Below, in pieces: positions 19,551 to 56,631 of a DNA stretch of 64,000 nt. How positions within the stretch are numbered: position 1 is the stretch's first letter; each line of letters opens with the position of its first letter. The DNA is from Candidatus Methylomirabilis sp. GTDB taxonomy: Bacteria > DYJV01. The notes under the pieces are model-generated. The model saw only the letters and a list, made by a program, of their open reading frames with translations. It had not been told where the DNA came from and searched no databases. The DNA is taken from NCBI GenBank assembly GCA_020722945.1, contig DYJV01000003.1:5243-69242 (forward strand), read 5' to 3'. Position numbers and translations under genes: made by a program.

Positions 19551-21452
19551 TTAATTTTTATTTGATTTTTTACTATCAACTTCTTTATCCATGTAGATAG
19601 ATTTGAAAAGCCATTCGTAATAATTATCCCTAAACTCTCTATAAGAGTCAAGTATTGTAACTATGTTGTTGGAAATTTTATTTTCAGATATTTTGAAAAA
19701 GTTCTTTTGATCAACTTTTTGCCTATTAATCTTGATATATTCAGAGATATATTCTACTGTCTTCATAAAAGGATTTATAGAATCAGAGAAAATCAATCTT
19801 GAAAATCTTGCAGGGTGAGTCCATTTGAAAAATTCTGCAGTATATTCGTTGCAGAAAGGTTTTATGAATGGTCTCATATAGTTTTCATAAAAATATTTAT
19901 TTGCTTTGGATATAAAATTAACATACTCAAAATCCTCTTTATCGTAATCTAACTTTATATCTTCAAGATTTTTCTCTATAAATTCAACTTCAAATTGAGC
20001 TTCTGAAATGTTTTTATTGAATGTTTCACTCTTTATCTTCATTTCATACAAGCCAGGGGCAAGGTTTCTTATATTTTCGATATTTTCAATTATAGCTCTA
20101 TGCTCTCTATTTGCCACCTTACCTGAAACAAAGATTCCGAGATGTCCTATATCAGGATGTATAAGATAAATTATTCTCTGCCCATTATTTTTAAGGTCTT
20201 CAGTAGTCTTATAAACTTCACTTATCCACTGTAAACCCTGCTCTGGAGGCGATATATTGTCACCCTCTGATGCAAATATCACAAAAGGTTCTTTTATTTT
20301 TCTCAAATCTATCTTTTCACCAAGTGGTGAAAGCATCTCACCCTTTTCAAGCTTGTTGCCAATAAAGAGATTATTTACGATAGCAACAATTTCACTCTCA
20401 GTAAAGAAATAGAATCCTGTCCACCATTTTTCAAATTCGAGGTAACGAGAATCCTCTTTATCAACATTATGAAAAACATTAAACTCTTTCTTCCAAAATG
20501 TATTTGCAGGATTTAACATTTCAAAATTATAAACAAGCCATGCTCCATCAAATATGCCATTACTTAAATCTGAAATAAGCATTGAGAGCCATACTCCACC
20601 TGTCAATCCACCTGTAACTCTCATCGGATTGATTTTATCCCTACCAGCCCAGTAAGATAAAGGAGTCCCATTGATAACAAGAGGACCCGTAAGATCAGGT
20701 CTCGTTGCAGCAATCATTGAAACGATCCAGCCTGCCTGACAATTTGCATAAATAACTGGTGGATTATCAGGGTGTAAATCGTGCATTATATCAATGAATG
20801 TAAGGAGAGCCAATCCAACATCATCAAGAGTCTGACCGGGACAAGGCTCTGGAAAGAAACCTACTAAATAACATTGATGCCCCTCTTGCATTGCTATACC
20901 AGCTTCTGAATCTTTCTTAAAAGCACCAATCCCAGGTCCATGCCCTGCTCTTGGATCAAATATCATAATAGGTCTTTTATTAGGGTCTATTTCAACACCC
21001 TTGTCAGGAAGAATTTTGTAGAGGATAAAATTTGCTGGTCTTTCAAATCCTCTTGCATCCATAATCTCTTCATATTTGAAGTTAACAAGTGGTGGCATAC
21101 CTTTTTGGTAATGATCAAGCATTATATTACCACGCTTTCTTAGAACATCAATAAAGAGAATGTATCTCTGACAATAATCAACAAAATAGTTAATAAACTC
21201 AATATAGTTATCAAAAATATCTTTAAATGAATCTGTAGAAATTTTGACATAATAATCTCTTAAAATTTTATCATTAAGAGGATTTTTGTCAATCTTATCA
21301 AGTAATAGTGCAACATCAGAAGGATTTTTGTAATCAATCTTTAGTTGTTTAAAAAGATCCTCAAAAAAATTGAGAAATTTCTTGTTGTTCGGTGAAAATA
21401 ACTTATCTCCTATCTGAAACGGATTTAACTTGATAATTTCATTATTCAGCAT
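19551..21452 (-). CDS. DUF3141 protein, PHA-synthase-like alpha/beta hydrolase
   Basis: A 633-residue protein whose central part is an alpha/beta-hydrolase fold like PHA synthase. The nucleophile elbow is ANCQAGW, so the nucleophile is Cys238 as in PhaC, not Ser. Plausible partners are Asp398 in SEGDNISPP and His437 in DIGHLGIF, giving a Cys-Asp-His set. The N-terminal 130 and C-terminal 180 residues are helical and unrecognised. There is no signal peptide, so it is cytoplasmic and perhaps granule-bound. It directly follows the phasin-like genes and lies downstream of phaC and phaE. It may make, trim or transfer hydroxyacyl chains; the reaction is not established by the sequence. Confidence 0.75.
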   Translation of the reverse strand: MLNNEIIKLNPFQIGDKLFSPNNKKFLNFFEDLFKQLKIDYKNPSDVALLLDKIDKNPLNDKILRDYYVKISTDSFKDIFDNYIEFINYFVDYCQRYILFIDVLRKRGNIMLDHYQKGMPPLVNFKYEEIMDARGFERPANFILYKILPDKGVEIDPNKRPIMIFDPRAGHGPGIGAFKKDSEAGIAMQEGHQCYLVGFFPEPCPGQTLDDVGLALLTFIDIMHDLHPDNPPVIYANCQAGWIVSMIAATRPDLTGPLVINGTPLSYWAGRDKINPMRVTGGLTGGVWLSMLISDLSNGIFDGAWLVYNFEMLNPANTFWKKEFNVFHNVDKEDSRYLEFEKWWTGFYFFTESEIVAIVNNLFIGNKLEKGEMLSPLGEKIDLRKIKEPFVIFASEGDNISPPEQGLQWISEVYKTTEDLKNNGQRIIYLIHPDIGHLGIFVSGKVANREHRAIIENIENIRNLAPGLYEMKIKSETFNKNISEAQFEVEFIEKNLEDIKLDYDKEDFEYVNFISKANKYFYENYMRPFIKPFCNEYTAEFFKWTHPARFSRLIFSDSINPFMKTVEYISEYIKINRQKVDQKNFFKISENKISNNIVTILDSYREFRDNYYEWLFKSIYMDKEVDSKKSNKN

Positions 21453-21461
21453 GTAACCCTC

Positions 21462-21749
21462 TTATTTTTTATTTGTTGTTTTGTCATCTAAAGAAACACT
21501 CTTCTGATATACAGAATCAATATACTCCAAACCTTTTAATACCATATTTTTGTAATCACTCAGAGCCATTTCAGAATTTTTTATCCACTCTTTGTAAACC
21601 TTTAATAAATTTTCTCTATATACTTCAGGCTGTTTCTGAATAAATATCTCTACAAATTTTAACTGCTGTTTGTTTATTAGGTTGAAGTTGTCCATGGATA
21701 AAGAGTAGAATAGTTTTATATTTTTAAAAAAGTTTTCATCATAGTTCAT
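21462..21749 (-). CDS. Small phasin-like protein (paralogue 1)
   Basis: A roughly 95-residue, fully helical, amphipathic protein with the core NFNLINKQQLKFVEIFI, a Pro-containing turn (QPE) and EWIKNSEMALSDYKNMVLKGLEYI. This layout (two long amphipathic helices, no Cys) fits phasin-type granule coat proteins. By eye more than 60 of the first 86 residues match the next paralogue, so they arose by recent tandem duplication. Two ATGs lie in tandem; the second (ending at 21749) has better spacing from GGAGG and aligns with the other paralogues. The charged tail DDKTTNKK is unique to this copy. Confidence 0.65.
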   Translation of the reverse strand: MNYDENFFKNIKLFYSLSMDNFNLINKQQLKFVEIFIQKQPEVYRENLLKVYKEWIKNSEMALSDYKNMVLKGLEYIDSVYQKSVSLDDKTTNKK

Positions 21750-21835
21750 CATAAACCTCCTAATATCTTAATAAAGGATATAAAGTAGAAATTTTATACC
21801 CACATATTCAATTAAAAATATCTGTTAGTCGTTCA

Positions 21836-22108
21836 CTACCTGTTAACATCAGAAATTGCTTTCTGGTATACAAAATCAATATACTCCAAACCTTTTATTA
21901 CCATATTTTCATAATCTGTGAGTGCTAACTCAGAATTTTCTATCCACTCTTTGTATATTTTGAGTAATCTCTCCCTATCCTTTTCAGGCTGCTCTTGAAT
22001 AAATAGCTCTACAAATTTTAGCTCTTGTCTATTTATGAGATTGAAGTTATCCATAGAAAGAGCATAAAATGACTTTCTGTTCATAAAGAAGTTTTTGTCA
22101 TTGTTCAT
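21836..22108 (-). CDS. Small phasin-like protein (paralogue 2)
   Basis: A 90-residue helical protein nearly collinear with paralogue 1: MDNFNLINRQELKFVEL, EQPEKDRERLLKIYKEW and MVIKGLEYIDFVYQKA. Charged residues vary while the hydrophobic faces are kept, as expected of a protein that lies on a lipid or polymer surface. It has its own strong Shine-Dalgarno GGAGG and spacers of about 85 bases on both sides, unlike the tight packing of phaE and phaC. Granule-coat function is inferred from the neighbours. Confidence 0.65.
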   Translation of the reverse strand: MNNDKNFFMNRKSFYALSMDNFNLINRQELKFVELFIQEQPEKDRERLLKIYKEWIENSELALTDYENMVIKGLEYIDFVYQKAISDVNR

Positions 22109-22192
22109 ATTTAACCTCCTTAAATTAGAGTTAATATGATATTCAATAAACTTCTTATAAATAAAAAATTGTCAAATATCAGGTAAAATAGA

Positions 22193-22462
22193 CTATTTTT
22201 GTTTATCTACTGCTTTTTTATAAGAAGTCTCTATGTAGTCCAAACCTTTTAGAACCATATTTTTGTAATCATTAAGTGCTATTTCAGAATTTTTTGTCCA
22301 CTCCTGATAAATTTTTAATAAGTTGTCTTTGTAAGCATCAGGCTGAGTCTTTATAAAAAATTCGACCATCTGCTCCTGCTGCTTATTTATAAGATTAAAA
22401 TTGTCGAGTGTAAGGTTGTAGTAATTCTTGATATTGTTAAAAAAATTGTCGTTGATCTCCAT
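22193..22462 (-). CDS. Small phasin-like protein (paralogue 3)
   Basis: An 89-residue helical protein of the same family: LDNFNLINKQQEQMVEFFIK, a QPDAY turn, EWTKNSEIALNDYKNMVLKGLDYIE. It is a little more distant from paralogues 1 and 2 than they are from each other. It lies 17 bases downstream of paralogue 4 on the transcript and has its own GGAG site. A role as PHA granule coat or PHA synthase activator is inferred only from similarity of form and position. Confidence 0.65.
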   Translation of the reverse strand: MEINDNFFNNIKNYYNLTLDNFNLINKQQEQMVEFFIKTQPDAYKDNLLKIYQEWTKNSEIALNDYKNMVLKGLDYIETSYKKAVDKQK

Positions 22463-22479
22463 ACTCGTCTCCTTATTTA

Positions 22480-22740
22480 TTAAACTTTCATGTTTTTTGT
22501 AAATACTTCATTAAGATTGTCTAAACCTTTTAGAACAACATCTTTAAACATATCCAAACCCTTTTCAGTAGAAGTTACCCATTCGTTGTAAACTGACATC
22601 ATATAATCTGAATTTGGGACTTTACTGTTCTTAAGCATCATTTCAAAAATATTTTTCTGCTGCTCTGTAAGCATTTTAAAATTTTCAAAAGCCAACTCAT
22701 AAACATTTTTTAAATTAACAAACATATTCTCTGTTCCCAT
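22480..22740 (-). CDS. Small phasin-like protein (paralogue 4, most divergent)
   Basis: An 86-residue helical protein that keeps the family frame (YELAFENFKMLTEQQKNIFEMML, EWVTSTEKGLDMFKDVVLKGLDNL) but differs at most surface positions and is Met-rich. It is the copy closest to phaC (18 bases downstream of its stop), so it is probably the ancestral phasin-like gene from which the other three were copied. AGGAGG lies before the ATG. Confidence 0.65.
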   Translation of the reverse strand: MGTENMFVNLKNVYELAFENFKMLTEQQKNIFEMMLKNSKVPNSDYMMSVYNEWVTSTEKGLDMFKDVVLKGLDNLNEVFTKNMKV

Positions 22741-22758
22741 GTTAAAACCTCCTATTTT

Positions 22759-23811
22759 TTATTTTAAAGAATGCTCAAATATCCATTTCCCCACAGATGG
22801 TGCTAACTCTTTCTGAGATTTTGAACTTACATATAATCCTATATGCCCACCCTTAAACGATAACATAGTCTTATCTTTTGAAGATACTAAATCGTTTAAA
22901 GGTTTTGTAGATGCAGGTGGGACAAGATGATCTTGCTCTGCATATATTGTAAGTAGTGGCATTGAAATATTTTTTAAATTCACTTTCCTTCCATTTAGAG
23001 TAAATTCACCCTTTACAAGCTTATTACCCTGATAAAGATCTTTTAAGAACTTTCTATATGCTTCACCTGCTTGTGCAGGACTATCAAATATCCACTTCTC
23101 CATTCTTAAAAAATTTTTTATATCTTCAACTGAAGTGGTATCCTTGACAAAATTGTAATATTTTTCAAAATTAAGCTGAAAAGGTTTAAGCATCAGATAA
23201 CCAATATTCATAAAATCACCAGAAACATTACCAGAAGAATCAACTAAGGCATCAATATCTATATATTTTGACCATACATTTAGAAGACCATCCTCAACAT
23301 CAAAATCAACAGGAGTAACCATAGTAACAAGATTTTTTATCTTTTCAGGATATAAAGCTGAATAGATAACAGAGAACGTCCCACCTTGACAAACACCAAG
23401 AAGGTTGATCGCATCAAGTTTATGCTTATCTCTTAGGTAATCAACGCAATTGTTAATAAACCCATCTATATAGTCTTCCATAGTGAGGTATCTGTCAGCT
23501 CTTTCTGGGTATCCCCAATCTATTATATAGATATCTAATCCTTGGTCAAGAAGTCTCTTTATGAAACTTTTATCAGCTTGAAGATCCATCATATAATATT
23601 TGTTGACAAGGGCATATACAATAAGAAGCGGAGGGTGTGGCTTTTGGGAATCTTTGTTCTGGTCGTAATGATAAAGTTTGACATTACCAAATTCAAGTTC
23701 TGTGCTTTTTGGAGTAGGCTGAACATCTATTGTATCAATATTTTTCATATCATTCATAAGATTAAATAATTTATAGTTGATATCAAGAATATCATTAGTA
23801 AAATTAATCAC
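22759..23811 (-). CDS. phaC: Class III poly(3-hydroxyalkanoate) synthase, catalytic subunit PhaC
   Basis: A 350-residue polymerase that joins (R)-3-hydroxyacyl-CoA units into PHA. It has the alpha/beta-hydrolase fold with the lipase-like box GVCQGG (nucleophile Cys141), Asp294 in AEQDHLVPP and His323 in GGHIGLYVS, at spacings matching class III enzymes. Its length (about 350, not 560-600) and the adjacent phaE define class III. Translation starts at a GTG three bases after the phaE stop, using a GGAGG inside the phaE tail, so the two subunits are coupled. Confidence 0.93.
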   Translation of the reverse strand: MINFTNDILDINYKLFNLMNDMKNIDTIDVQPTPKSTELEFGNVKLYHYDQNKDSQKPHPPLLIVYALVNKYYMMDLQADKSFIKRLLDQGLDIYIIDWGYPERADRYLTMEDYIDGFINNCVDYLRDKHKLDAINLLGVCQGGTFSVIYSALYPEKIKNLVTMVTPVDFDVEDGLLNVWSKYIDIDALVDSSGNVSGDFMNIGYLMLKPFQLNFEKYYNFVKDTTSVEDIKNFLRMEKWIFDSPAQAGEAYRKFLKDLYQGNKLVKGEFTLNGRKVNLKNISMPLLTIYAEQDHLVPPASTKPLNDLVSSKDKTMLSFKGGHIGLYVSSKSQKELAPSVGKWIFEHSLK

Positions 23812-23814
23812 TGA

Positions 23815-24786
23815 TTACTCCTCCATTTTTGTTTTCTTTACAGATTTTGCTTTTGCATCTGTAGGGACTTCACCTTTTAAAGTTTTTATAATATCTTTTA
23901 GTTCTTTAATCTCTTTTCTTATCTCCTGATTATCTTGTTTAACAATGTAAAGCTCTTTGTAAGCTCTGTCAAGTTCTGTTTTGGTAGCAATATTGGAATC
24001 CTTTAGGACTTCGTAGGTGTATCTATCAAGGGATAATTTTAGTTTGGAGCCTGCTTTTACAAGCTCTCCAAGTGTAGAGCCAAAATCTTTACTTTTAAAA
24101 AAACTATGAAAAACAGATTCATTTTTGTTTACCCATTTTTTAAAAAATTCATCAAAATTTTCTATATTAGGATGTTTGATAATTTCATTAATAAAATCTT
24201 GGAACCCTTTTTCAGATTCTTTGTTTATGATTGCTTTAAACTTCTCAACATTCCCCATATAAGCTTTAAAATCTTCAACAATATTTTTTATCATATCATT
24301 ATACTCCCTCGTCAAACCTATTGAAGGGAGCTTCAACATATCATCAAAAAATTCAAAATTAACTTTTGAGAAATTATTGAGAACACCAAGATTACTTTCA
24401 CTATTCTCAATAAAAAACTTTAAATTATTATAGATATTCATATCTGAAAAAGGTTTTGTAAAATCATTAAATACTTTTTCAGGAGTCAAATCAGAGAGGT
24501 TGAATATCTTAAGAACTATATCATTATAATTTTTCTGAAAATTTTTGAATAAATTCTGATAATCAAAAACATCAAGTTTATTTTCTCTTTTAAAAAAAGC
24601 ATCATTGAAGTTTTTATAGAAACTAAATAGGTCTGTGTATACTTGTGTCCCTTTATCTATCTGAAAATAAGGGGTAAACATATCTCTCTGTATTGACGAA
24701 AGATCAAAGTATTTATAGTTGTTTGGTTTAAAAGAATTTTGCCACATTTCAAAAAACTTTTTCTGCATTTCCGTAAAATTGTCCAT
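23815..24786 (-). CDS. phaE: Class III PHA synthase subunit PhaE
   Basis: A 323-residue helical protein that pairs with PhaC and is needed for its activity. Sequence conservation in PhaE is low, but the family signs are present: an aromatic N-terminus (MQKKFFEMWQNSF), a mid-region YNDMIKNIVEDFKAYM, a Leu-rich stretch LSLDRYTYEVLKDSNIATKTELDRAYKELY, and a charged C-terminal coiled coil (about residues 265-308). GGGAGG precedes the ATG. It is the second gene of the PHA operon after the SDR reductase, 114 bases downstream. Confidence 0.85.
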   Translation of the reverse strand: MDNFTEMQKKFFEMWQNSFKPNNYKYFDLSSIQRDMFTPYFQIDKGTQVYTDLFSFYKNFNDAFFKRENKLDVFDYQNLFKNFQKNYNDIVLKIFNLSDLTPEKVFNDFTKPFSDMNIYNNLKFFIENSESNLGVLNNFSKVNFEFFDDMLKLPSIGLTREYNDMIKNIVEDFKAYMGNVEKFKAIINKESEKGFQDFINEIIKHPNIENFDEFFKKWVNKNESVFHSFFKSKDFGSTLGELVKAGSKLKLSLDRYTYEVLKDSNIATKTELDRAYKELYIVKQDNQEIRKEIKELKDIIKTLKGEVPTDAKAKSVKKTKMEE

Positions 24787-24900
24787 TGTGAAACCTCCCT
24801 TGTTGTAAAAGAAATTTTAATGAGTAAAATAAAGTATTTGAAAAAGGTATAGAATATAAGAATTAATAATTTATAAAGAAATTGTAAATATTTTGCAAAA

Positions 24901-25662
24901 TCATAATCTCAAACCACCATCTACTTCTATAGTTCTGCCATTAACATAGTCATTTTTAATAATAAAAAATAAAGTATCTGATATCTCTTTTTTATCTGCA
25001 AACCTATCAGCAGGTATTGTCTTTTTGATTTTTAGTTTTATAGTTTCTGGGATAAACTCTGTCATCTCTGTATCAACATACCCTGGAGCAATAGCAACTG
25101 ACCGTATCTTGTATGGTGCAAGTTCCTTTGCCCATACAACAGTCATTGCAGCTACACCTGCTTTTGAAGCAGTATAATTACTCTGTCCAAGATTTCCAAC
25201 TCTCGATATAGAAGATATTGATACAATTACCCCATGTTTATTGAATTTAACCATTTGAAAAGCAGCTTCTCTCGCACATAAAAATACACCTGTAAGATTG
25301 ACATCTATAACCTTCTTCCACTTCTCAAAAGGCATTCTTACAATATTGCCGTTTTTATCGGTTTTCACCATAAAAGAATCAGCAGTAACCCCACTATTGT
25401 TTACAGATATATCTACCCCAGAATACTTTTCAGCAACAGACTCATAAAAGTTTATTACATCATATTCAAGGCTTACATCAGCAACATAAGAGTCTACACT
25501 TACACCCTCTTTTTCAAAAAAAATTTCAGCATCGTGAAGATTTTTCTTACTTATGTCACATATAGATACTTTTGCACCTGCTTTGGCAAGATCTAATGCA
25601 AATTGTCGTCCAAGTCCCCTTGCACCCCCTGTAACAATAGCTATTTTATTATTAATATTCAT
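24901..25662 (-). CDS. SDR reductase of the PHA locus (PhaB/FabG-like)
   Basis: A 253-residue classical SDR with GGARGLG in the cofactor-binding loop, NNSG (usually NNAG) in the core, SISS with the catalytic Ser, and YTASK with Tyr and Lys. The C-terminus ends VDGGLRL. Leading phaE-phaC, it probably reduces acetoacetyl-CoA or a longer 3-ketoacyl-CoA to the (R)-3-hydroxy monomer. The first in-frame ATG (25686) would add eight residues; I prefer the ATG ending at 25662, nine bases from GGAG, though the ATG between them is also possible. Confidence 0.8.
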   Translation of the reverse strand: MNINNKIAIVTGGARGLGRQFALDLAKAGAKVSICDISKKNLHDAEIFFEKEGVSVDSYVADVSLEYDVINFYESVAEKYSGVDISVNNSGVTADSFMVKTDKNGNIVRMPFEKWKKVIDVNLTGVFLCAREAAFQMVKFNKHGVIVSISSISRVGNLGQSNYTASKAGVAAMTVVWAKELAPYKIRSVAIAPGYVDTEMTEFIPETIKLKIKKTIPADRFADKKEISDTLFFIIKNDYVNGRTIEVDGGLRL

Positions 25663-25700
25663 TACCATTATCTCCAAAAAAAACATCCATTACTATTCTA

Positions 25701-51711: not shown

Positions 51712-52698
51712 ATGAGTAATATATTAGTTGAGGTTACAAGAGGTGAATTTCCTGAAAATATTCACAGAGGGCATATATGTGTAGTCAACCATGACAATTA
51801 TGTAACAAAATCTATAGGAGATATCAATTTTCTTACATTTTTACGCTCGTGTGCCAAACCTATCCAAGCAATCCCTGTAATTACTTCTGGAGCTATGGAA
51901 AAGTTCAGAATAACTGAAAAGGAGATTACTATATTTTCAGGGTCTCTAAATGGTCAATGTTTCCAAATTGAGATTCTAAAAGCAATACTGAATAAACTCG
52001 GATTAGATGAAAATGCACTCCAATGTGGAATTCATCCACCTTCACATATCGAAACAAGGAAAAATACACCTAAATTTTCAGTTTTACACAACAACTGTGC
52101 AGGCAAACATATTGCTATGCTGACATTGTGCCAATTTTACAATTTTCCTATAGAAAATTACTACAAAATTGAACATCCTGTTCAACAGATAATACTTGAT
52201 GAAATTTCATATTTTACAGAAGTTCCAAAAAATGAGATTAAAATTGGGATTGATGGATGCGGAGTCCCAGTCTTTGCAGTTCCTATCTTTAATTTTGCTT
52301 CTGCTTACCAAAAATTATCTGATCCAGAAAAGATATCTGACACAAAAAAGTCATCTGCAGTGAAACTTTTAATAAAAAATAGTATCAAATACCCTGAATT
52401 AATTGCTGGTGATGAGCGAATATGCACTGAACTTATGAGAGTTAAAAGCAACCTTTTCGCTAAAGTTGGAGCAGATGGGAGTTATGGTATTGCAATCCCA
52501 AAGGAGAAAATTGGGATTGCAATAAAAATAGAAAGTGGTAATATGACTGTTCTTCATTTAGTAGTCTTGGAAACCTTAAAACAACTTAAAATTCTTAACG
52601 ATAATGACATCGACAAATTAAAAATTTTCTACGACATAAAAGTAACAAACCACAGAAAAGAGATAGTTGGGATGTTTAAACCTATATTCAAACTTTAA
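51712..52698 (+). CDS. L-asparaginase, Rhizobium type II-like (AsnA/ReAV family)
   Basis: A 328-residue protein of the COG4448 asparaginase family, unrelated to E. coli asparaginases. The Ser-x-x-Lys pair is in LRSCAKPIQA (Ser46, Lys49), and the metal/catalytic Cys-Lys pair is in NNCAGKH (Cys129, Lys132), with further conserved Cys183 (DGCGVP) and Cys238 (ERICTELM). The usual ASHSGE motif reads IFSGSLNGQ (about 74-82), keeping Ser but losing the His and Glu. AAGGAG precedes the ATG. It hydrolyses asparagine or a related amide, with altered site residues leaving the exact activity open. Confidence 0.78.
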   Translation: MSNILVEVTRGEFPENIHRGHICVVNHDNYVTKSIGDINFLTFLRSCAKPIQAIPVITSGAMEKFRITEKEITIFSGSLNGQCFQIEILKAILNKLGLDENALQCGIHPPSHIETRKNTPKFSVLHNNCAGKHIAMLTLCQFYNFPIENYYKIEHPVQQIILDEISYFTEVPKNEIKIGIDGCGVPVFAVPIFNFASAYQKLSDPEKISDTKKSSAVKLLIKNSIKYPELIAGDERICTELMRVKSNLFAKVGADGSYGIAIPKEKIGIAIKIESGNMTVLHLVVLETLKQLKILNDNDIDKLKIFYDIKVTNHRKEIVGMFKPIFKL

Positions 52699-52718: not shown

Positions 52719-55235
52719 TTATGTATGGAGAAGATCTGTCTCATACAAAAACTCTTGAAGTCTCATCTCAATATCATCAGGATTGGCATTTATTCTTGCA
52801 ACACCCATCTCTATAGCTTTTTTGGCAACTGCTGAGGCAACTTTTATAGGAACTTTAAGGTCTAAACCATTTGGGATAATGTGATTCGGAGATAATCTAC
52901 AAAGTGCAAGTTTTGAAATTGCCTCTGCAGCCTCTATTTTCATCTCATCATTAATCTCCTTTGCTCTTACATCAAGAGCACCTCTGAATATTCCTGGAAA
53001 AGCAAGACAGTTGTTTACCTGATTCGGAAAATCTGAACGACCAGTAGCTATAATCTTCGCACCACCAGCTTTTGCTTCCTCTGGCATTATCTCAGGGGCA
53101 GGATTGGCAAGAGCAAAAACAATAGCATCCTTATTCATACTCTTAACATGATCTTTTGTAAGAAGATTTGCTTTTGAAAGACCTATAAAAACATCAGCAC
53201 CCTTAATAACATCATAGATAGTGCCCTTCTCCTTATTAAGATTTGTCACTTTAGCCATTTCATCTTTATAAGGATTCATACCTTCAGCCCTACCTTCATA
53301 GATAGCTCCATTTGTGTCACACATAATAAGATTCTTGCACCCTGCTTTAAGTATTAATTTTGAGACAGCAGTTGCCCCAGCTCCTGCTCCATTTACAACC
53401 ACTCTAACAGCATCAATTTGCTTATTTACTATTTTAAGAGCATTTTTAAGACCAGCCAAAACTACAATAGCTGTCCCATGCTGATCATCATGAAAAACAG
53501 GGATATCAAGTAGTTTTTTTAGCTCTGATTCAACATGAAAACATCTCGGAGCAGATATATCTTCAAGGTTAATACCACCAAAATTAACAGATATAGCTTC
53601 AACTGTCTGAATTATCTCTCTTGGATTTTGAGTTTTTATACATATAGGAAAAGCTTCAACTCCACCAAAGGTTTTAAATAGGAGTGCTTTACCCTCCATA
53701 ACCGGCATACCTGCCTCAGCTCCTATATTTCCAAGTCCAAGAACTGCAGAACCATCTGAAATAACAGCAACAAGATTACTCTTACAAGTATATTCATAAA
53801 CTTTTTCAATATCTTTTGATATTAGTTTGCATGTTTCTGAAGCAGTTTTAGAGGAGTAGAGAAGATTAAATATATATTTATCTCTTATTGGAAGTTTATT
53901 TTTTATCTCTATAACACCAGTATGTCTTCTGTGCAAAATAACTGATTCTCTATTTACATCAACTTTTTCATCAAATCTAAATCTTAGCTTCTCTTTACTC
54001 TCAAAGTTCTCTCCCTCATATAAAAGATTAAACAATCTTTTGGTAACAAGCTCAGGGTCTATATCTATCCTATTGATTTTACACTCTATGGCTTTCTTTG
54101 CTACAACACCTGCAATAACAGGTGAAACACGAAAATCAAAAAGATCAGGAAGGATATTGATGTCATTTAGGTTGTCACCTACAAGAGCTGCCAAAGCCTC
54201 TGCTGCTGCAATTTTTATATCATAATTAATCTCAATTGCTCCAACATCAAGGATACCTCTCATAAAACCAGGTATTATAAGGGCTGATGTAAAGTGATTG
54301 GGGTAATCAACCCTACTTGTAGCAACTATCTTAGCACCTGCATCCTTTGCATCACGATAATTTATTTCAGGCTCAGGACTTGAAAGAGCAAATACAATAG
54401 GATCTTTTTTCATCAATTTAATCATATCGTATTGGACAACTTTACCAATAGAAACACCTATAAAAACATCAGCATTCTTAAGAGCATCTTTTAACTCACC
54501 CTTTTCTTGAGAAATATTTATACTTTTTGATATTTCACTTTTAACCCAGTTCATATTGTAAGGTCTATCTCTGTAAATTATACCCTTATTATCACATAGA
54601 AGAATATTTTTTATTCCGTAGTATAGAAGCAACTTTGTGATACCTATCCCAGCAGCACCTGCTCCATTTATTACAACTTTTATTTTATCTTTCTTTTTAC
54701 CTATTATTTTTAGAGCGTTGATTAAGGCAGCAAGAACAACCATAGCATTAGCATCTTGGTCTCCATGAATAACAGGGACAGATAGACATTTTCTCAACAT
54801 ATCTTCAATTACAAAACAGTTAGGCGATCTTATATCTTCAAGGTAAAACCCTCCAAATGTAGGCTCAAGGTTCCTTATGCTGTCAATAATACTATTTTCA
54901 TCTTTACCTTTAATAGCAAGGGGTAGTGCATCGATATTTGCAAATGTCTTAAAAAAAACAGAGTAACCCTCAAGCATAGGTATAGCACCGGATGGAGTAA
55001 CATTACCTATCCCAAACACAGATGTCCCATCTGAAATTATTCCGATAGTATTGCCCCTGCATGTAAGTTTGAATGACTCAACACTATTTTTTTCAATCTC
55101 TCTACAGCACTCAGCAACTCCTGGTGTATATACCAAACTCAAAATAGAGCTATCTCTCAATTCTACTTTACTATTTATACCTATAAGACCTCTAAATTTT
55201 TTTCTCAATTCAAGAGATGTTTTTTCCATTTTCAT
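52719..55235 (-). CDS. Double malic enzyme (two tandem malic-enzyme modules in one chain)
   Basis: An 838-residue protein built from two malic-enzyme modules (about 1-425 and 426-838), instead of the usual single module, which in MaeB carries a C-terminal phosphotransacetylase domain. Each keeps the active-site Lys (K96, K521), LEDI metal ligands and a Rossmann GAG motif (191-196; 616-621). Module 1 keeps VYTPGVA (35-41) but its DDQHGTA motif has become GDQDANA (158-164). Module 2 keeps FHDDQHGTA (581-589) but has lost TPGVA, reading LYSSKTA (459-465). Malate to pyruvate conversion with NAD(P) is the family reaction. Whether one or both modules work, or one regulates, is open. Confidence 0.85.
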   Translation of the reverse strand: MKMEKTSLELRKKFRGLIGINSKVELRDSSILSLVYTPGVAECCREIEKNSVESFKLTCRGNTIGIISDGTSVFGIGNVTPSGAIPMLEGYSVFFKTFANIDALPLAIKGKDENSIIDSIRNLEPTFGGFYLEDIRSPNCFVIEDMLRKCLSVPVIHGDQDANAMVVLAALINALKIIGKKKDKIKVVINGAGAAGIGITKLLLYYGIKNILLCDNKGIIYRDRPYNMNWVKSEISKSINISQEKGELKDALKNADVFIGVSIGKVVQYDMIKLMKKDPIVFALSSPEPEINYRDAKDAGAKIVATSRVDYPNHFTSALIIPGFMRGILDVGAIEINYDIKIAAAEALAALVGDNLNDINILPDLFDFRVSPVIAGVVAKKAIECKINRIDIDPELVTKRLFNLLYEGENFESKEKLRFRFDEKVDVNRESVILHRRHTGVIEIKNKLPIRDKYIFNLLYSSKTASETCKLISKDIEKVYEYTCKSNLVAVISDGSAVLGLGNIGAEAGMPVMEGKALLFKTFGGVEAFPICIKTQNPREIIQTVEAISVNFGGINLEDISAPRCFHVESELKKLLDIPVFHDDQHGTAIVVLAGLKNALKIVNKQIDAVRVVVNGAGAGATAVSKLILKAGCKNLIMCDTNGAIYEGRAEGMNPYKDEMAKVTNLNKEKGTIYDVIKGADVFIGLSKANLLTKDHVKSMNKDAIVFALANPAPEIMPEEAKAGGAKIIATGRSDFPNQVNNCLAFPGIFRGALDVRAKEINDEMKIEAAEAISKLALCRLSPNHIIPNGLDLKVPIKVASAVAKKAIEMGVARINANPDDIEMRLQEFLYETDLLHT

Positions 55236-55875: not shown

Positions 55876-56631
55876 ATGTCAGGTCACAGTAAATGGAGCA
55901 CAATAAAGCGTAAAAAAGCAGATATTGACTCTAAACGAGGTAAGCTATTCACCAAAATAATCAAAGAGATTACAGTTGCAGCAAAAACAGGTGGAGGCGT
56001 TCCAGAGTCAAATCCCCAGTTAAGAACAGCTATTTTGGCAGCAAAAGAGGTAAATATGCCAAAAGACAATATAGAAAAAGCAATTAAAAGAGGGACAGGC
56101 GAGCTTGAGGGTGTTTCTTATGAGGAGATTATCTATGAGGGTTACGGACCGGGCGGAGCTGCTGTTCTTGTTCATTCACTTACAGACAATAGAAATAGAG
56201 CAGCATCAGATATAAGAAATATCTTTACGAAATGCAATGGAGCATTGGGTGAAGCAGGCTGCGTAGGTTGGCTCTTCCAGCGTAAAGGGTTTATCACTGT
56301 TCCTGCAAACGGGGTAGAGGAGAGTAAACTTTTTGATTTAGTTATAGAAGCAGGGGCTGAAGATATGAAACTTGATGATGATTCTGCTTATTTTGAGATT
56401 TTATCTTCACCATCTGACTTTGAAAATGTAAAGCAAATACTTTCAGAGAACAAAATCACATTTGATAGTGCAGAAGTTACAATGCTTCCACAAAACACAA
56501 TAAAACTTACAGGGAAAGATGCTGAAAATATGCTCAAACTAATGGATACTCTTGAAGATTGCGATGATGTCCAGAAAGTTTACTCTAATTTTGATATTGA
56601 TGACACTTTTTTAGAGCAGTTTTCAAAATAG
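55876..56631 (+). CDS. yebC: YebC/TACO1 family protein
   Basis: A 251-residue protein of the YebC/PmpR family, linked to transcription control and to translation of proline-rich stretches. It starts with the invariant [27 protein letters not shown] and contains [25 protein letters not shown] and the [11 protein letters not shown] segment. AGGAGG gives a strong start. It leads the ruvC-ruvA-ruvB cluster, a common order, and overlaps ruvC by one base. Confidence 0.95.

Follow-up and report, generated by a model that had tools for sequence, protein, structure and literature searches.

The window analysed here is a stretch of 64,000 nucleotides from Candidatus Methylomirabilis sp. (contig DYJV01000003.1), and the element under study is a tandem malic-enzyme gene on its minus strand. 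Between positions 52719 and 55235, a single open frame of 838 residues plus the stop codon encodes two malic-enzyme modules, with a linker of about 20 residues between them. A Pfam scan of the 838-residue protein retrieved the malic (PF00390) and Malic_M (PF03949) domains twice each, with 128.1 and 124.9 bits and above the curated cut-off, and did not find any phosphotransacetylase domain. Moreover, module 1 and module 2 can be aligned over 404 residues with one gap and 43% identity; each of them is of the short bacterial malic-enzyme type, from which the chain differs in having two modules instead of one module of about 400 residues. The frame, the Pfam domains and the module alignment agree with the original prediction of one 838-residue frame harboring two such modules.

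In small bacterial malic enzymes, the crossover region (the tail) supplies the active site of the partner subunit with a tyrosine, Y52 (PMC7902834); the same paper credits the 5CEE structure with the tail swap in small enzymes generally. Since the tyrosine is donated in trans, an active site consists of the tail of one subunit and the body of the other, and this, in turn, implies that a fusion can form two sites, one from tail 1 and body 2 and the other from tail 2 and body 1. The features of the gene are the following (the evidence is given in brackets; f136 designates one group of relatives):

52719..55235, minus strand: tandem malic-enzyme gene, 838 residues and stop (open frame; full-length relatives in 12 other genomes).
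55065..55235, minus strand: tail 1 (residues 1-57), the crossover segment at the N terminus of module 1; it is kept and predicted to lie on body 2 (profile scores; structural superposition).
55113..55130, minus strand: YTPGVA of tail 1 (residues 36-41), with Y36 as the putative donated tyrosine (YTPGV kept in 13/13 tandems; role of the Y52 equivalent from PMC7902834).
54015..55064, minus strand: body 1 (residues 58-407), predicted to be pseudo-catalytic, with the nucleotide-binding fold kept (residue comparison, profile scores).
54963..54965, minus strand: Y91, replacing the general acid/base lysine, EGK to EGY (K in 116/116 single enzymes; R, K or Y in the module 1s).
54744..54764, minus strand: GDQDANA (residues 158-164), replacing DDQHGTA, with G158 in the place of the aspartate that holds the lysine (D in 116/116 single enzymes and 0/13 module 1s).
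54378..54380, minus strand: S286, replacing the asparagine of ANP, N300 of Bdellovibrio MaeB (residue comparison).
53958..54014, minus strand: inter-module linker (residues 408-426), of low model confidence at 410-423 (alignment, predicted model).
53811..53957, minus strand: tail 2 (residues 427-475), a decayed crossover segment (profile scores).
53841..53858, minus strand: YSSKTA (residues 460-465), replacing YTPGVA; the tyrosine is kept here and is a serine in the f136 relatives (residue comparison).
52722..53810, minus strand: body 2 (residues 476-838), an apparently intact catalytic body (residue comparison, profile scores).
53688..53690, minus strand: K516, the general acid/base lysine, kept (13/13 module 2s).
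53469..53489, minus strand: DDQHGTA of body 2 (residues 583-589), kept (13/13 module 2s).

The presence of the same fusion was checked in a broad sample of 386 genomes across bacteria, and then through closer searches within the carrier phyla; the collection contains two genomes of the phylum of the source genome. The broad sample retrieved the fusion from three genomes of the f109 family, whose tandems share 52-55% identity with the window protein over the whole length, and from genome G135. Of the closer searches, the one in the 12-genome phylum of f109 yielded nine f109 frames that contain both modules and a further copy truncated at the end of its contig, and the one in the phylum of G135 yielded three copies. 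The total is 13 tandems including that of the window, the 12 other genomes belonging to two other phylum-level groups (three groups in all), and two of the carriers, G244 and G389, are single-contig genomes. The tandem gene is the sole malic enzyme found in the source genome (G000, 98% complete), and likewise in G135 and G397. With a cut-off of 1e-145 or stricter, which weak cases could escape, no tandem was found in the phyla of G378, G163, and G025 (4, 3, and 3 genomes, respectively) or in 396 genomes of a large phylum. Module 1 alone did not match any of the named genome contigs, and a scan with a motif of module 1 gave no tandem among the 80 matches listed, mostly single enzymes, a result from which absence does not follow.

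Two candidates were reclassified. The locus L065, apparently a single enzyme with the losses of module 1, is a tandem truncated at the end of its contig, and an open frame of 1323 residues in G002 (G002:C1:67000-78000, locus L030) corresponds to two adjacent genes of 751 and 453 residues. The shorter of these encodes a single malic enzyme with DDQQGTA instead of DDQHGTA, and the longer one has a malic enzyme as its first part and a length fitting a MaeB hybrid; the pair is a possible two-gene relative.

A tree of the 26 modules and 42 single malic enzymes placed all the module 1s in one clade (99/97) and all the module 2s in another (100/99), the two clades being sisters (97/90) and containing the same three subgroups. 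The monophyly of both clades and their sister relationship can be explained by one old duplication and fusion; thus, the simplest reading of the tree is a single such event followed by inheritance or transfer, which the tree does not separate. Furthermore, the ratio of nonsynonymous to synonymous substitution rates (dN/dS) between close relatives is 0.037-0.061 for module 1 and 0.034-0.094 for module 2. These values indicate strong purifying selection on both modules and, since they are as low in module 1 as in module 2, no ongoing decay of module 1.

The analysis of the active-site residues revealed that the two modules differ sharply. The motifs originally reported are all present in the translation, i.e., VYTPGVA (35-41) and GDQDANA (158-164) in module 1, and LYSSKTA (459-465, with the tyrosine itself kept as Y460) and FHDDQHGTA (581-589) in module 2. 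The accompanying claim that both modules keep the catalytic lysine, LEDI and the Rossmann motif is correct for LEDI and for the Rossmann GAGA motif, and incorrect for the lysine of EGK, which is K516 in module 2 and Y91 in module 1. In Bdellovibrio MaeB this lysine, K107, is the general acid/base, and D174 holds it (PMC7902834). Module 1 has also lost the equivalents of D174 (G158) and of N300, the asparagine of ANP (S286), and reads PNHFTS instead of PNQVNN; these residues are truly missing and not displaced to other positions of the module. Module 2 keeps the lysine, the aspartate, the asparagine of ANP and PNQVNN. Among 116 single malic enzymes, the EGK lysine, the first aspartate of DDQHG, the tail tyrosine and the asparagine of ANP are each present in 116/116, and because the lysine, the aspartate and the tyrosine are invariant there, their losses in the tandems go far beyond chance.

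Module 1 also retains the metal-ligand acids and, in 13/13 copies, the residues matching the NADP (nicotinamide adenine dinucleotide phosphate) site of MaeB (D215, R224, and K232), the lysine of this site being present in only 5/13 module 2s. In module 2 of the window protein, D640, R649, and K657 match the NADP residues named for MaeB, so that NADP is probably the cofactor of the tandem enzyme. The nucleotide motif and the NADP-type residues kept by module 1 suggest that nucleotide binding by body 1, with a structural or regulatory role, is possible.

A profile built from single malic enzymes was then used to score the tails and the bodies of the 13 tandems, in bits per column. Tail 1 scores 1.37-1.83 and tail 2 only 0.23-0.84, whereas body 1 scores 1.34-1.88 and body 2 2.41-2.59; both differences hold in 13/13 tandems, with no overlap of the ranges. 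The single positions follow the same crosswise scheme, since the K107 site has a lysine in 13/13 module 2s versus 3/13 module 1s (the f136 copies), the D174 site an aspartate in 13/13 versus 0/13, and YTPGV is found in 13/13 module 1s, versus a glycine in 3/13 and a valine in 0/13 module 2s. A plain sequence search (phmmer) aligned 5cee to residues 2-51 and 477-814 of the query, that is, to tail 1 and body 2. According to these data, what appeared to be one loss per module would correspond to two losses in one composite site, the one formed by tail 2 and body 1, and the site formed by tail 1 and body 2 is predicted as complete. The complementary divergence and the built-in heterodimer originally proposed are thus well supported, but not the idea that each module lost a signature of its own site, as both losses fall in the same composite one.

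The AlphaFold2 model of the 838-residue chain, built on a 65-sequence alignment, has a mean predicted local distance difference test score of 92.3 and a predicted template-modelling score (pTM) of 0.92, and it is poor only at residues 410-423 and at the last residues; such a pTM means that the position of the modules relative to each other is confidently predicted. Short enzymes with a swapped tail superpose on about residues 424-838 (5CEE at 1.0 Å over 386/387 residues). For the large-type enzymes, in which the tyrosine comes from the same chain, the superposed range starts at residues 21-24 and ends at 837-838 in all 31 of the 31 listed, including human, pigeon, plant, nematode, and trypanosome enzymes. 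This would place tail 1 at the position of the same-chain tail on body 2, which is the natural reading of superpositions tabulated by their first and last aligned residues.

On these grounds, we propose that the protein is very probably a single-chain pseudo-dimer with one complete composite site, formed by tail 1 on body 2, and a second, dead site. The gene would have arisen by duplication and fusion of an ancestral short malic-enzyme gene. Ordinary homodimers have two identical composite sites, because the YTPGVA tyrosine of each tail is lent to the body of the partner; in the fusion, the retained site would comprise Y36 of tail 1 and K516, E558, D559, D583, D584, N711 and the PNQVNN segment of body 2, and the site of tail 2 on body 1 would have decayed in both contributions. 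Module 1, its nucleotide-binding fold intact, would be retained since module 2 needs it both for the tyrosine and as a structural partner, and module 2 would oxidatively decarboxylate malate to pyruvate, probably with NADP. The roles of the trans-donated tyrosine, of the Lys-Asp pair and of the metal acids are taken here by analogy from the solved relative. The dead half might perhaps be a sensor as well, its nucleotide pocket binding NADP(H) or another metabolite and gating the live site via tail 1, an addition that we consider possible but doubtful.

Some points weigh against this proposal. The pattern arose once, so that the 13 tandems are not 13 independent events; the tyrosine of tail 2 survives in 10/13 of them, the three f136 copies having a serine, and the module 1s of the same f136 group keep the lysine. 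Moreover, in 13/13 module 1s, R11 and L17 (55185-55205 in the window) replace the histidine and the lysine of LH....GK, which are conserved in 97% of the single enzymes, the histidine being kept in 12/13 module 2s. Tail 1 is thus not entirely ordinary, in a way that the simple model would not have predicted; as a guess, this region of the tail may serve its own body. As for the structure, the superposition tables give first and last residues and not the internal pairing, the predictor was trained on solved malic-enzyme dimers, and a previous model, based on 12 sequences, had poorly predicted tails (pTM 0.47) and was unusable.

Module 1 could instead be mainly an allosteric sensor of NADP(H), of a metabolite or of a metal, with module 2 working alone, e.g., by dimerizing with the module 2 of another chain; a sensor half was also among the original proposals, and its support is indirect. 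This is improbable, although it would be analogous to the dead phosphotransacetylase domain of MaeB, which senses acetyl-CoA, and would fit the Rossmann motif, the metal-ligand acids and the D215/R224/K232 set of module 1, the last kept in 13/13 copies (the lysine in 5/13 module 2s). Indeed, a module 2:module 2 pair would bring body 2 together with a tail 2 that has decayed and that has a serine for the tyrosine in the f136 copies, and the perfect YTPGV would be unexplained in a purely regulatory half.

A second alternative concerns the reaction, and for it the gene neighborhoods have to be considered. In three f109 loci (L058, L059, and L060) a gene for a glcD-like flavin adenine dinucleotide (FAD) oxidase lies directly 3' of the tandem gene; L058 and L060 also harbor a glcF-like iron-sulfur gene, in an apparent lactate/glycolate oxidation operon. 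These neighbors suggest a tie to the oxidation of lactate/glycolate to pyruvate/glyoxylate.

The composite site might accordingly work on another substrate or in another direction, e.g., in the carboxylation of pyruvate to malate or in a lactate-linked reaction, the glcD-like genes, and the glcF-like ones of two loci, being those expected of D-lactate/glycolate dehydrogenases. Since body 2 has every residue conserved in malic enzymes, and no glcD- or glcF-like genes adjoin the gene of the window, we regard this as unlikely too. A two-reaction enzyme, with both modules active on altered or different substrates, would agree with the confident fold of both modules and the strong constraint on them; module 1, however, is devoid of the lysine in the window and in all the f109 copies, of its aspartate in 13/13 tandems and of the PNQVNN pattern, which makes this reading very unlikely. 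Lastly, a misassembly, a sequencing error fusing two genes or a decaying pseudogene, to which the 5.79% contamination of the window genome bin might point, has a negligible probability and is refuted for the family, given the fusion in 12 other genomes, including the single-contig G244 and G389, and the low dN/dS of both halves of the relatives.

In the window the gene stands alone, between a convergent asparaginase II gene (51712-52698) and a yebC-like gene (at 55876) transcribed divergently from it. Elsewhere in the window (19551-25686) there is a polyhydroxyalkanoate-like set, including a DUF3141 protein, a PhaC-like hydrolase (350 residues), a coiled protein of 323 residues, and a reductase of the short-chain dehydrogenase/reductase type; such a set would depend on NADPH, for which a malic enzyme is a possible source. 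Neither tRNAs nor Rfam families (at the gathering score) were found in the 64,000 nucleotides.

If the single-chain pseudo-dimer is correct, the tandem would represent a natural experiment in which a shared-site homodimer turned asymmetric; after the fusion, selection would have kept one composite site and dropped the other in both of its pieces, a condition that lasted through divergence to about 50-55% identity. It would provide an evolutionary test, outside crystals, of the use of a trans-donated tyrosine in short malic enzymes, and offer a single-chain, one-site malic enzyme for kinetics. Annotations as MaeB, or as a pair of active malic enzymes, would also be inadvisable for genes of this kind.

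The short bacterial malic enzymes, such as those of Candidatus Phytoplasma (5CEE), Pyrococcus (1WW8/2DVM), and Thermotoga (1VL6), share with the tandem the fold of module 2, the catalytic residues of body 2 and, as predicted from the model and the superpositions, the tail reaching the partner; they are homodimers with two like sites, whereas the tandem is one chain with a single complete site, as predicted. Their full set (tail tyrosine, lysine, glutamate, three aspartates and asparagine) does not occur in every module of the tandem, module 1 lacking the lysine, aspartate and asparagine equivalents. The large type (eukaryotic, SfcA) has a chain of about 550-600 residues with a same-chain tyrosine, and module 2 is much closer to the short enzymes (Z 30-38, E 1e-121) than to it (Z 20-26, E 1e-21). 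The hybrid MaeB enzymes (Bdellovibrio 6ZNG and E. coli 9KRW) have in common with the tandem a malic-enzyme module with a trans-donated tyrosine (predicted in the case of the tandem) and an attached dead enzyme homolog; the tandem, however, lacks their C-terminal phosphotransacetylase domain, its dead part being a second malic enzyme, as well as their hook insert (residues 369-386 in Bdellovibrio), which corresponds to a 15-residue gap in module 2 versus 6zn4. None of the matched solved structures is a two-module single-chain malic enzyme, and no fused or tandem malic enzyme was found in a literature search that had subscription papers mostly outside its reach. Outside this family, the rice OsGLYI-11.2, a fused two-domain glyoxalase I with one dead site (PMC4833937), likewise represents a shared-site homodimer turned into one chain, with an unrelated fold and reaction. 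In trypanosomes, the live AdoMetDC needs a dead paralog, the prozyme (PMC5201418, PMC6221367), as proposed here for module 2; the two are, however, separate chains, and the prozyme relieves autoinhibition. The two-module malic enzyme, for which no published description was found, is made of known parts, and there are precedents in other families for fused dimers in which one site is dead.
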